The translations under genes were made by a program, and so were the position numbers. Positions 15,019 through 38,107 of a DNA stretch of 64,000 nt are shown here, piece after piece. The notes beneath the pieces were generated by a model. It had not been told where the DNA came from, searched no databases, and saw only the letters and a program-made list of their open reading frames with translations. The stretch is taken from the NCBI GenBank assembly GCA_001600495.1, contig BCKE01000061.1:165985-229984 (forward strand). Reading direction: 5' to 3'. Source of the DNA: Pilasporangium apinafurcum. Its lineage: Eukaryota; Oomycota; Peronosporomycetes; Pythiales; Pythiaceae. Position 1 is the stretch's first letter; every line of letters starts with the position of its first letter.

Positions 15019-15228
15019 TCACTTTGGTTTTCCATGTACTGTCACCACTTCGCATCCGTTCTTGAAAAGAAGAATGGCGCTGAAAAGAGCTCATGGCGGA
15101 GAACTCGAAACAAATTTCTGCTTCTATCGATAGGGATTGCTTCGCTTTAAAAAACACGTCAAAGTATATCCTACCGATAGGAGAAATGGGGGATAAAGAT
15201 TGAGAACTGGTGAAACTAACTTAAAATA

Positions 15229-33311: not shown

Positions 33312-35315
33312 ATGTTGCACGAACGTCGTCTTAACGACATTACGCCGAATCAGCTGCGTTCGTGCGACATCAACTCCATGATCATAGTTGCTGGTGCTCC
33401 ATCACTTCCAAGTGGCACACAACAACTAATGAACGCCCGTCTGTCGTGCATGCGCGCGCTGCAGCAGCTGGTGCAGGATGCGCTGCTGCAAACGCATCCA
33501 TCGCTGGATTTCAACACGAAAGTGCCGGCCTTTCTCGGGGTGCGCCGCTCGATGCAACGCAACGCCGACTATCAGACAAGCATAGCATTGCAATTTGCGA
33601 ATCGACTGCGCGAAAATCCAGTCAAATTCGCTCAGATGATCATTCCGCATCTGCCTACCAGAGATAGCAGCATAGATAATACAGCAGATGTTTCCTGTTT
33701 TTCTTCTTCGCATATGTTACGTGAGGCGTTTGTGTCTAACGGCGGCTTCCTGAACTTCGTGCTGGACGACCAGTGGATTGCGCAGCAGGTTGTACGCATG
33801 GCCACCAACGGTATTCAACCGGCCCAATTAACAAACAAGTCCATTCTTGTGGACTTTGCAGCTCCAAATTTAGGTAAGAAATTGCACGTTGGCCACTTGC
33901 GCTCCAGTGTCATTGGCGACACGATCTGCAATCTGCTTGAGTTCCGCGGTCACAAAGTTGCACGCATCAGTCACACAGGCGACGTCGGGTCGGCGTTAGC
34001 GACGCTGCTCGTGGAGCTCATAGAGCAGTGCGTACCGCTGGACACACTTTCTGATTCCCAGCTGGGTCAGTATTATGAGTCCGGCAAGAAGAAATTTGTC
34101 AAGGATGCACGGTTTAAAGCTCGTGTTGACGATGTCGTGATCCAACTGCAGCGCATTGGAACAGCGAATAGCGCCGATAAAATCGACCCAGTGGTGCTGC
34201 AAACATGGGAACGTGCCTGTCAAGTGAGCCGTGAGGCGTATGCGAAAATCTTTGATCGGCTAGAAGTCAATGTGCAAGAGCGTGGCGAGTCAACGTACTT
34301 GAAGTTGGTACCTGAAATCGTGGAGAAACTCGTAGACAGTGGGTTCGCTGTGAAATCTCGCGGTGCACTTTGCATCTTCGTTGATGGTCCAGAGAAGCCC
34401 CCGATGCTCATTCGTAAGAAGGACGGTGGATACTTGTATGCGACCGTGGATCTCGCATGTCTCTATTCACGCATCCATGGATTTCCCGGTGTCGATGAGA
34501 CCCAATACGATGAGATTTTGTATATCACGGACCAGAGCCAACAACTCCACTTTGACCATTTGTTTAAAGCGGCCAAAAGCGCTGGATGGACGAAACGTGC
34601 GAACGGTCAAGAAGTGAAGCTGATGCATGCGCCATTTGGTCTGGTGCTGGGCAAGGACGGTACGAAATTGAGTTCGCGGAACGGTGCATTTGATTACTTG
34701 GAAGATTTACTGAATGAGGCGACAGAAGAATGCAACCGTCGGTCTCTAGCAGGTGAAGGAGGAGACGATAAGCAGTACAGTGATATTATAAGTAACAACC
34801 GTGTGGTGGGCGATGCAGCAATTCGGTACTTTGAGCTCTCGCAGCAACGCGAGCGTAACTACAAGTTTCTCTTTGATAACGTACTTAACTTGAAAGGCAA
34901 TACGGGGGTTTACCTCATGTACGCCTCAGCGAGATTGCAAGGCATCCTCCGCAAGGCCTCATCACCATCAGGATCTGCTCTGGAATCAGCGCCTTCGTGG
35001 TCTGAGTTCTTGACTTCAGACGCCTCAAAGATGCTGACCGATGCCTCACGGGACTGGCACCCATCCGAGCGCCAGCTAGCGCTGTTGTTGTGCCAATTCG
35101 ACGACGAAGTGGGCATGACGCTAGCGCAGCTCTACCCGCATTATCTCTGTGACTATTTGTTCCGCGTGGTCACCCAGTTCCACTCGTTTTACGAGAAGTG
35201 CCGCGTACTGAACGATCCCAAGCAGGAAAGTCGACTGCTATTGTGTGCTGCCACGGATGCCATTCTGGGTCGTGGGTTACAACTCGTGGGCATCAAAGCA
35301 GTTAAACATATGTGA
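33312..35315 (+). CDS. Arginyl-tRNA synthetase
   Basis: Class I aminoacyl-tRNA synthetase that charges tRNA-Arg. From ATG 33312 it has 667 residues. ATG 33378 (MIIVAGAPSLPSG) is an alternative, and an upstream in-frame ATG at 33099 is rejected because it lies inside the opposing gene. An N-terminal Add1-like tRNA-binding domain precedes the catalytic core. The HIGH-type motif is HVGH near residue 192 (NLGKKLHVGHLRSSVIGD), followed by HTGDVGSALATLL. YATVDLACLYSRI and ITDQSQQLHFDHLFKAA are conserved in ArgRS, and the KMSKS equivalent is GTKLSSRNG near 450. The C-terminal anticodon-binding helical bundle ends at VGIKAVKHM. The gene diverges from the PHD gene with only 28-130 bp between starts, so the promoter is shared. 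Whether the N-terminus targets mitochondria is not clear. Confidence 0.93.
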   Translation: MLHERRLNDITPNQLRSCDINSMIIVAGAPSLPSGTQQLMNARLSCMRALQQLVQDALLQTHPSLDFNTKVPAFLGVRRSMQRNADYQTSIALQFANRLRENPVKFAQMIIPHLPTRDSSIDNTADVSCFSSSHMLREAFVSNGGFLNFVLDDQWIAQQVVRMATNGIQPAQLTNKSILVDFAAPNLGKKLHVGHLRSSVIGDTICNLLEFRGHKVARISHTGDVGSALATLLVELIEQCVPLDTLSDSQLGQYYESGKKKFVKDARFKARVDDVVIQLQRIGTANSADKIDPVVLQTWERACQVSREAYAKIFDRLEVNVQERGESTYLKLVPEIVEKLVDSGFAVKSRGALCIFVDGPEKPPMLIRKKDGGYLYATVDLACLYSRIHGFPGVDETQYDEILYITDQSQQLHFDHLFKAAKSAGWTKRANGQEVKLMHAPFGLVLGKDGTKLSSRNGAFDYLEDLLNEATEECNRRSLAGEGGDDKQYSDIISNNRVVGDAAIRYFELSQQRERNYKFLFDNVLNLKGNTGVYLMYASARLQGILRKASSPSGSALESAPSWSEFLTSDASKMLTDASRDWHPSERQLALLLCQFDDEVGMTLAQLYPHYLCDYLFRVVTQFHSFYEKCRVLNDPKQESRLLLCAATDAILGRGLQLVGIKAVKHM

Positions 35316-35350
35316 TCGAACATAGAGAAATGCACTAGAGAGACATCAGT

Positions 35351-35478
35351 GTGGAAATACAAGTGAGAATAAACGATGGGAAGGAAGTAGAGGTCAAGCC
35401 CATACTTGAAGTGAATCCATTGAACTTGACACACGATATTCAGTCAAATTTATTCCTCCCGGATTCCGATCTTACACC
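35351..35478 (+). other. Open coding-like segment abutting the Fanzor element
   Basis: From 35351 to the left inverted repeat a plus-strand frame without ATG is open and coding-like (VRINDGKEVEVKPILEVN); it runs on into the element. On the other side of the element a 51-codon frame starts at 37840. The two may be parts of one older gene split by the insertion, but neither has a recognisable family. Low confidence. Confidence 0.25.
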
Positions 35479-35504
35479 GTTGGAGATTTCAAACGCCCAG
35501 GGCG
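35478..35504 (+). repeat. Left terminal inverted repeat of Fanzor element
   Basis: Pairs with 37813-37839 on the opposite strand, 22/27 matching. Its inner part forms a short palindrome, ACGCCC-A-GGGCGT (35493-35505). Confidence 0.6.
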
Positions 35505-35553
35505 TCCTAAAAAAACAATGTTCGGGCATCTCAGCCCAGTGTAAATTATGGTT

Positions 35554-37503
35554 CTATGCTGTCGACGCAACAGCACTGTCTGCTGGCGGCAGTCGTGTCT
35601 GGTGACTCAGATACTTTGGTCGCTCTCCTCCTTCCAGAGCCTGTCTTGTGAGGCGAGCTATGTTGATTGAAGAGTTGACATCTCGGTTCCACAGCCTATG
35701 ACACTGTTGGCATAGCAATAGACCGTGTACAAGTCGGAGTTGTCTGTCTTCGTCAGCCTTTTTGGTGTTAGGGTCCAGCCTGACACGAAACTTCTCGTAC
35801 TTGGCACCCTCGACTTGGTAGTGAGAGCACTGACAGCTGGTCTTGAACTCGTCCACGAGGTATAGCGAGCAGCCCGCTTTCTTCAACAGAGTCCTGAATC
35901 CCTTTCCCTTGGTGGACTCCTTGAACTTGTGATGCTTCTTCTGCTCCTAGTCATCGATTCCCACCACTACCTTGTCTAGGGTGCCGAAGATCTCCTTGAA
36001 GCGTTGTACCAGCCGCTGTTCGGACTTGAGTATGTTGTAAAAGTTGTTCAATCTTATTTTGCGGTACAACCCCCCTTGTAGAACCCAGTCACCTTGCTGT
36101 ACAACCTGCCTTTGTAGAACTTAGGCATCTTGTTGTTCACCAGCAGCTTAGTCTTGATGAAAGCCTTGAAATTGTCGTTATCGACAGTCTTGCGATAATT
36201 CACTGACAGGTCCGATTCTCACTCCACGATCGTGTGACCTTCGACTGAAGATTGCTTCTTGTTGTTCAGCATGATCTGAGCATACCTCTTGGTCTTGGTC
36301 TCCTGTCTGCACTGGTTTTGAGTGTAACGGTACCGCTTCGAGGCATCCTCGTCGATGCAGAATAGCAGGTCACTCATGTTGAGGTCAATTCCCACCACAC
36401 TTCGCTTGCTCAGCTGTTGCGCTTCATCTGCTGACAGGTCGTCTACGTACCGCTCCCGAGCCACTACAAGCTTCTTCTTGGGGGTATTCTTACCATATAG
36501 ATAGCGCCTGATCAGCAGGATGCTGCAAGCAACCCCATCGGTGTTGATCATGTGGTTGAGTCAGTAGTCACGTGCCTTGAACACCTTCATCTTGGTCCTG
36601 AAGAACGTCTTCCATATCTTGTCCTTGTTGCGCATCAGTTCTCCTTTGGTCAACGGCTTGAATTTGGCACCGTTCTCCTTGGTGAACAGTAGGTGGATCA
36701 GAGTGGTCGTGTCTAGTGTGATATACCTTGAAATGACGCTGGCCCTCAGAGGGCAGAAATTACAGAGCTTCTTACCAGGCTGCTCCATCACCTTGGTCAT
36801 CCTCAGCATGCCGGGACAGTAATCCTGTGGTCTGCACTGCAGGTCGTAATACAGCAGATCCTTCTCATACCTGGTCTTTGCAGGTAGTACTAGGTTCTTC
36901 TGCTGCCTCACCCATGAGTGGTAAAAGGGATGTGACTGAAAAGGCTCTGAGCCGACGTTCAGCAGATCGTTCTTGAGCTGCCGGAGAGTAACACATAGCT
37001 TCCTGATCGCAGCCTTGCGCTCCCTTTTGGTTATCCCAGTAGCTCTAATGCGCTCTACCAGGTAGTCTTTCTGCCACACCGTGTTGACATATGCTTCTAC
37101 ATACTCGATGAAGTGCTGTCTGATATTGGTCTCGAAGACGATCACCGCTTGCACAGAGGCATAGTCGAGCACAGTGTTGAGGTGAGTCTAGGACGACGGT
37201 TGGTCTCCTATCGGCAATAGGAGCTCGAAGTGCTGCTTGTAGAACGCAGTCAAGTTATCCCGCAGGGCTTTGGCGGTGGCCGAAGGCGGTCTACCTATAT
37301 CCCTTTCGCTGACAAACCGTCTTGAACACCGTATCCAATAGCTCGGCATTCACAACCGGCGGTGTATCCTTGTGGTGCATCAAGTATAGCCTGAGGAATA
37401 GGAGCGATCGAATGATGATGCGGTTGACCATCAGTGCTGCCTGACTGATCACCGGCTGCTTCTCCGAAGTCTTGAGGACAGAAGCAAGGCTAGTCTTGGT
37501 CAT
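35554..37503 (-). pseudogene. Fanzor (eukaryotic TnpB-like RNA-guided nuclease), degenerate
   Basis: Fanzor proteins are transposon-encoded, omega-RNA-guided DNA endonucleases. This copy reads from about 37503 (MTKTSLASVLKTSEKQ) to TAG 35556-35554. It keeps the RuvC-I region (SVVGIDLNMSDLLFCIDED), a RuvC-II-like region (VVVGIDD just before a stop), the zinc finger (TSCQCSHY, then GLLLCQQCHRLWNRD) and the RuvC-III aspartate in WNRDVNSSINIARL. Damage: a frameshift near 37285, in-frame stops at 37190-37188 (TAG), 36563-36561 (TGA), 36221-36219 (TGA) and 35949-35947 (TAG), and a second frameshift near 36070. It is therefore inactive as read, unless there are sequencing errors. Similarity is close enough across the whole length for the decay to be recent. 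It is of the Fanzor1 style and distinct from the fragment at 14.8 kb. Confidence 0.9.
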
Positions 37504-37795
37504 TTTGTAGTATGGTAGGCTAGGATCAGGGGGGCTTGTCCTCGAATTCCATCCGACTATATTTCTGTGTTAGATTTTTATTTTCGCCGGAAGGCGTGTT
37601 GTGCCTCTGCATCCAACCTGTTTGCTGATACCCGTCAATCTACTGATTCAGAGACCTCCGAGAGTAATGTAGGGCTCTACAGGTCACTTCACGTGAATGA
37701 GACGCCTCCAGGAAATGGCTGACATCAGCTAGCTTGTAGTCTTCGGCTTCGCGCTTTATGACCTTGGTATTATATGACAATATAAGAGTCAACAC

Positions 37796-37839
37796 AATGC
37801 CTAGGGGGCTGGCCCCCTAGGCATTTGAAATTTTCAACG
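37796..37839. repeat. Right end of Fanzor element: inverted repeat plus perfect hairpin
   Basis: 37813-37839 is the right inverted repeat. 37796-37808 and 37813-37825 form a perfect 13-bp stem (AATGCCTAGGGGG) with loop CTGG. Such subterminal hairpins recall IS200/IS605-type ends, though Fanzor elements vary. Confidence 0.6.
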
Positions 37840-37995
37840 ATGGAAAATGCTGAAGAGTCGCTTACAGTTTGCCAAATACTTGCGCTGATTTCCTTCAGCT
37901 GTATGGAATTGCATTACGACGAGACGCTTCAGCTGGCACGAAATGTGACCTTTCAAGCGCCCGTCCTCCCTGCGTTCCAACTACGCCAAGCTTAG
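37840..37995 (+). other. 51-codon open frame next to the Fanzor right end
   Basis: ATG 37840 to TAG 37995 encodes 51 residues (MENAEESLTVCQILALISF near its start). Its ATG immediately follows the right inverted repeat. It is coding-like but matches no family I know. It may be the 3' part of a gene split by the element, a short independent gene, or chance. Confidence 0.25.
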
Positions 37996-38107
37996 ATTCT
38001 CATGTTTTGAGCGTTTGTACGTGACAAAAACCAGGAAAAACTAAAGGATAAAACGAAGCACCATTCATTAGTCCATAAAAACAGGAAGGAACGAAAGGAA
38101 AACAACT

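Follow-up and report, generated by a model that had tools for sequence, protein, structure and literature searches.

The stretch of Pilasporangium apinafurcum DNA that was analyzed, henceforth the window, is 64,000 nucleotides long and contains a broken Fanzor1 nuclease gene that is read on the minus strand, a transposase-like helix-turn-helix module that precedes this gene, and terminal inverted repeats that enclose them both (Table 1). An arginyl-tRNA synthetase gene lies on the opposite strand, with its stop codon 159 bases from the element. In a search that scored 7993 candidates, those sharing the most words, the closest of the matches listed are Globisporangium (70–71% identity) and unnamed sequences, together at 70–72% over 85% of the synthetase's length; every organism named among those matches is an oomycete, in agreement with the oomycete origin proposed in an earlier note on this DNA, and the host is probably of the Pythium group.

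Table 1. Features of the element and its immediate flanks, in window positions.
Feature	Position	Strand	Basis
Whole element, CACCG...CGGTG	35475..37842	- (= gene strand)	28 two-repeat copies, empty paralogues of another copy, window letters
TA target duplication, left copy	35473..35474	.	L034 empty paralogues and window letters
TA duplication, right copy, decayed to GA here	37843..37844	.	Window letters; TA in relatives
Left terminal inverted repeat	35475..35501	+	22/27 identical to right repeat
Right terminal inverted repeat	37816..37842	-	Window letters
Left palindrome ACGCCC-A-GGGCGT, alone not above chance	35493..35505	.	
Right (gene 5') subterminal hairpin, 14-bp perfect arms	37796..37825	.	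Shuffle test
Broken Fanzor1 gene; stop codon 35554-35556	35554..37533	-	tblastn with P0002, ORF list, Pfam TNB
Fanzor1 gene blocks	35557-36069, 36090-37307, 37303-37533	-	tblastn with P0002
Transposase-like helix-turn-helix upstream of Fanzor start, one stop here	37621..37759	-	tblastn; L043 Pfam matches
Predicted three-stem 3' part of guide RNA scaffold	35471..35545	-	Predicted from folding and covariation
Predicted upstream hairpin within last codons	35557..35575	-	Folding and covariation
Predicted guide segment, flanking DNA beyond gene-3' end	35451..35470	-	Inferred from published Fanzor1 guide RNAs

The earlier description of a broken Fanzor gene holds: on the minus strand, three blocks align to P0002, a full-length relative of 653 codons that was the second match of the frame of copy L018 (73% identity), and against P0002 the gene in the window is interrupted by four in-frame stops and two frame changes. 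Its C-terminal piece matches the Pfam family Cas12f1-like_TNB (E = 4.4e-08). The gene is assigned to Fanzor1 because P0002 matches SpuFz1 (E = 4.9e-44); P0002 also matches the Fanzor1 proteins of Parasitella (2.3e-37) and Guillardia (2.3e-17), and a search for its viral relatives found none. Judged by these comparisons, the gene is a SpuFz1-like Fanzor1, with SpuFz1 as the nearest solved relative. The motifs GIDLN, VDEFKTS, and NRDVN and four cysteines can be read in the window pieces, as can the RuvC-I Asp and Asn, the alternative Glu, and the last Asp, all of which align between P0002 and SpuFz1; the residue roles are those given in the available text of PMC10432273, transferred to the window through P0002 by counting residues in the present analysis. 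By alignment, both the alternative glutamate that marks a Fanzor1 RuvC domain and the C4 zinc finger are present. Among the aligned copies, third codon positions are clearly more variable in two of the three coding segments; after correction for base composition and with all copies included, first and second positions of those segments stand at 0.78–0.89 of expectation and third positions at 0.95–0.98, with two of the four intervals of the corrected first- and second-position ratios excluding 1. These values point to past selection on the Fanzor coding region that was weak at most. The low third-position value near the gene end (0.57 in full-length copies, 0.78 with all copies), being one among about 20 comparisons per set, is a hint at most.

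Nothing else in the element is as unusual as the transposase-like helix-turn-helix that lies ahead of Fanzor. The peptide of copy L043 scores above the cut-offs of HTH_23 and HTH_28, and its comparison with the genome returned 61 matches that, judged by position, look like family copies; the helix-turn-helix part is covered in 27 of them, counted as rows that span residue 4 or before to residue 38 or beyond. In copy L015, the module and the N-terminal half of Fanzor share one open frame; in several other copies it is broken by a stop, and in some the 5' region does not resemble it. Constraint on the helix-turn-helix part was not detected (corrected ratios of 1.15, 1.45, and 1.35), and a search for relatives outside the family returned three candidates and no protein at E ≤ 0.001. 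The module may be what is left of the original transposase, or it may represent a fusion.

The source genome (36.5 Mb in 136 contigs) was searched with the window element, yielding 71 matched segments from 40 scored of 67 candidate loci. The segments were merged by eye into at least 40 family loci, including the window copy, and the other 39 were fetched with their flanks; 14 of the 40 are near full length and 26 are derivatives or fragments. Full-length copies are 83–87% identical to the window copy, and no intact gene is present among those read: the longest open frame reaches 475 codons (L015), as against 653 in P0002, and the least broken copies relative to P0002 are L015 (no stops, one frame change) and L013 (one stop). 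The deletion derivatives L032 and L033 contain neither stops nor frame changes within their retained parts. Deletion junctions recur, in query numbering, at 473/1222 (six loci), 672/1557 (six), 626/1557 (seven), and 846/1781 (two), and the gene-3' end, including the predicted guide RNA scaffold, is largely kept in all 26 derivatives and fragments (query 47–369 at least). Two loci outside the 40, L082 and L086, show family similarity at the gene-5' side only. The aligned family copies have decayed mainly by C to T and G to A changes (8.2–8.4%, versus 2.5–2.7% in reverse), for which neither a CpA context nor a CpG-only context was seen. In a separate observation, CGGTG-TAAA is absent from the right end of L009 (G000:C17:9791-12110), where about 12 bases of the left flank are repeated instead, a pattern that suggests gap repair cut short.

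Comparison of these copies settled the ends of the element. The 27-bp inverted repeats of the earlier note were reproduced with the same identity, and its expectation of definable ends was borne out in that many copies share sharp, common ends; the limits that it placed at 35478 and 37839, which it expected other copies to share exactly, are 3 bp short on each side according to the other copies and the empty paralogues. The alignment of copies continues outside those limits, as TTTACACCGTTGAAGATTT, and comparing copy termini lengthened the terminal repeat to TTTACACCGTTGAAG. A genome search with TTTACACCGTTGAAGATTT, allowing up to two mismatches, found 83 sites, versus one for the reversed pattern. 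In 28 copies with both ends, base composition is already at background immediately beyond TTTA and TAAA, and no direct repeat of greater length could be detected in the flanks. These end pairs were hand-picked (26 of the 40 loci, plus L079 and L081); L012, L023, L038, L041, L044, and L081 were kept despite four or five mismatches at one end, and L029, with five, was dropped. The same pairs plus L091 and L092, with L090 excluded, form a set of 30 copies, in which TTTA is found on the gene-5' side in 20, TAAA on the gene-3' side in 24, and all 30 flanks are distinct.

The target site was read from copy L034, an insertion within a repeat whose occupied site is TTTA-element-TAAA, by examining eight paralogous segments that span the place in the fetched DNA. 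At the equivalent place, TTTAAA is found in three of the eight segments (window near 15150, L054, and L007, the last with a longer T run); window 15198-14867 and one L054 segment read TTTAAAGCG, L056 reads TTTGAAGCG (TTTGAA), the stretch is missing in four, and CACC of the element occurs in none. Element-free paralogues, which the earlier note had named as a check on the boundaries, do exist for this one insertion, and at L034 TA was duplicated on insertion inside TTTAAA. It follows that the element is CACCG...CGGTG, with the window span given in Table 1. A search for a target duplication by comparing left with right flanks was discarded, as no setting beat the shuffle test, which is expected if TA alone is duplicated. 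That the shorter ends are nevertheless real, and that the outer TTTACAC is target preference only, is scarcely credible. Local similarity to the window copy does start at query 1–3 in five of the eight longest matches and end at 2359–2362 in all eight, the other three starting at 33–34 with a different, shorter left end (outer repeat retained in two of them); yet the CAC that precedes CGTTG is as conserved as the interior, and the empty site of L034 has TTTAAA without CACC.

Hairpins had been reported at both ends, of which the right one beats chance (0 of 200 shuffles as good; p ≤ 0.05 in 6 of 16 right ends, these being the mapped ends of one type), but the left one does not (p = 0.265 in the window; p ≤ 0.05 in 2 of 46 left ends). 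Alignment A1 comprises 40 of these 46 left ends, those of L015, L028, L038, L046, L063, and L085 having been excluded because they were poor, rearranged, or duplicate; by gap counts, 15 of the 40 are missing the left palindrome.

Terminal inverted repeats with sharp ends in 28 copies and a TA duplication at one insertion are the hallmarks of Tc1/mariner elements, and the window element is read, with a probability of about 85%, as a dead copy from a family of non-autonomous DNA transposons of the Tc1/mariner type, in which a Fanzor1 nuclease is the one gene identified. It is highly unlikely that a transposase of a different class made the ends, whether Helitron2-like with hairpins at both ends or from another superfamily: one end does have a hairpin, no transposase gene was recognized in the copies, and Fanzor1 occurs in Helitrons and other superfamilies (PMC3627910, available text), but the inverted repeats, sharp boundaries, and TA duplication speak against such a class, and the left hairpin is weak or missing in many copies. 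Helitron2 itself, with hairpins at both ends and asymmetric short repeats, was rejected on the left hairpin not exceeding chance, the symmetry of the repeats, and the TA duplication. Against the Tc1/mariner-type reading, no transposase with these ends was found: the genome has 59 matches to DDE_3 and 11 to DDE_1, and when positions are compared by eye not one of them falls within a pair of the repeats. Three unpaired repeat sites were found to hold, in about 1 kb each, one Fanzor remnant and, in two cases, longest frames that match no Pfam family. A DDE_3 match at C8:657822-658112 was considered as a partner and set aside, as it lies about 300 bp beyond the end of similarity of the adjacent copy and the end repeat was not found. 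Elsewhere in the genome, DDE_3 occurs directly beside Fanzor-type domains at L052 (G000:C135:16210-16901) and L048 (G000:C7:591696-593110), which are candidate elements carrying both genes.

Three stems are possible in the final 75 bases, read in the direction of the gene: an outer one between TTTACAC and the terminal GTGTAAA (the internal complement and the repeat tip), a hairpin of GGGC with GCCC, and a capped stem of CGTTG with CAACG; a further hairpin can form over the last codons. A three-stem scaffold at the 3' end of the gene is predicted from this folding, with moderate confidence, as part of a guide RNA. The Fanzor1 guide RNAs described in the available text of PMC10711439 are built of three stems, take in both the repeat and the target duplication, and reach about 15 nt beyond the latter. 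An omega-RNA running off the 3' end, as earlier proposed, is plausible, but its end at 35478 is probably wrong, because the stems predicted for the scaffold take in the repeat tip and TAAA, as far as 35471; by analogy with the published RNAs, the guide RNA should pass 35471 into the flank and end near 35455.

Whether the structure is a scaffold was weighed against the reading that it serves the transposase alone, as DNA-level ends, or is chance, which is possible, with the odds somewhat against it. In its favor, the single-sequence folds of six copies are divided: L018 takes the three-stem form (z = -3.56) and L012 the outer stem without the rest (z = -0.80), and the best fold lacks the outer stem in L044 (-3.66), L001 (-2.57), L043 (-1.52), and L016 (-0.57), so that z falls below -3 in two of six and below -2 in one more, with the outer stem in two of six best folds. 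RNAalifold alone predicts four pairs, none compensated, and after correction for base composition the 50 bases adjoining the gene end (query 30–79, window 35507-35556) show no extra conservation (ratio 1.33). A 34-pair structure laid over 40 ends points the other way, with 86.9% of cells paired, compared with 85.8% in shuffled alignments, and a covariation score of 0.134, compared with 0.118 (0 of 500 shuffles) and at most 0.066 in slid versions; this structure was drawn from the same sequences, which biases the slide control in its favor, and on two of the five covariation measures it does no better than the shuffles (both-side changes, 9 versus 8.9; further pair types, 38 versus 38.3). A scan of 35300-38000 against Rfam gave no match. 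The layout matches that of the published Fanzor1 guide RNAs, again as described in PMC10711439, and a guide RNA scaffold is preferred.

Given such a scaffold, a mechanism can be proposed in which a mariner transposase, supplied in trans, would have moved the element by cut and paste. Transcripts that pass through the 3' end of the gene would serve as guide RNA, their three stems including the repeat tip and TAAA, and the guide portion would be read from the flanking DNA. The target-adjacent motif is predicted to be TTTA by analogy with the CATA of SpuFz1 and the putative TA duplication of SPu-1. The motif and the guide match would be adjacent in the empty site only, after excision; an allele emptied in this way would be cleaved by the nuclease at TTTA plus the guide match, and the element would return to the site when the break was repaired from the sister copy. 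The occupied site would be spared, the guide match there being preceded by GTGTA and not by TTTA. In place of a guess from one copy, the analysis provides an oomycete family for which the ends are defined, a target site is known, and the guide RNA boundary can be tested.

A further proposal, which is doubtful, is that the deletion derivatives are guide donors and not debris, with the Fanzor protein perhaps carrying an N-terminal transposase-type helix-turn-helix that binds the ends of the element. As the predicted scaffold is kept in the derivatives and the flanks differ in 30 copies, a few nuclease sources could serve genome-wide guides in trans. If so, such sources could have rescued the whole family after excision, and the family would be a natural example of one nuclease with a library of transposon-borne guides. 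One locus, L090 (G000:C53:175131-175275), is 145 bp long and retains little beyond the two ends and the predicted scaffold. It was considered as an amplified solo guide RNA element and rejected as such: the genome contains its junction a single time, and amplification is therefore not demonstrated.

Elements of this kind have been on record since 2013, and the present family is a further member. In the available text of PMC3627910, Bao and Jurka describe six Fanzor1 families in Pythium ultimum, of which PUl-1 has a Mariner transposase and PUl-4 has Fanzor only, Mariner repeats, and a TA duplication. The present family resembles PUl-4 in its oomycete host, Fanzor1 as the sole gene, Mariner-type inverted repeats, and a TA duplication, a likeness drawn from the published description; it differs from the Pythium ultimum elements in its upstream helix-turn-helix, which that text does not mention for them. 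Similarly, SPu-1, the Spizellomyces punctatus element of SpuFz1, is Fanzor1-only, with inverted repeats, a putative TA duplication, and no transposase found with its repeats (PMC3627910 and PMC10432273, as far as their available texts describe it). Loci of SPu-1 with the guide RNA and without the protein are on record (PMC10432273), and protein-less loci that retain the guide RNA part, here a predicted one, are likewise seen in the present family. In contrast to SPu-1, the target-adjacent motif is CATA there and predicted to be TTTA here, and intact copies exist there, whereas none is present among the full-length copies read here. The Fanzor1 element of the ascovirus SfAV is also non-autonomous and carries Fanzor1 only; its three-stem guide RNA uses the repeat and the target duplication, and sequencing reads extend about 15 nt past the latter (PMC10711439, available text). 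The SfAV element differs in its host and, according to the same text, has no assigned transposon family, and the guide RNA of the present family is a predicted one.

For the Fanzor/TnpB zinc-finger family PF07282, the whole genome has 150 matches or more: 852 candidates were obtained, and the 150 that were scored and listed are all above the cut-off. Among the long open frames listed, some are masked stretches read as N. The segment 14662-15198 of the window is a repeat that also appears in loci fetched for Fanzor-type domains elsewhere, and family elements lie within or beside copies of it at L018, L034, and L040.
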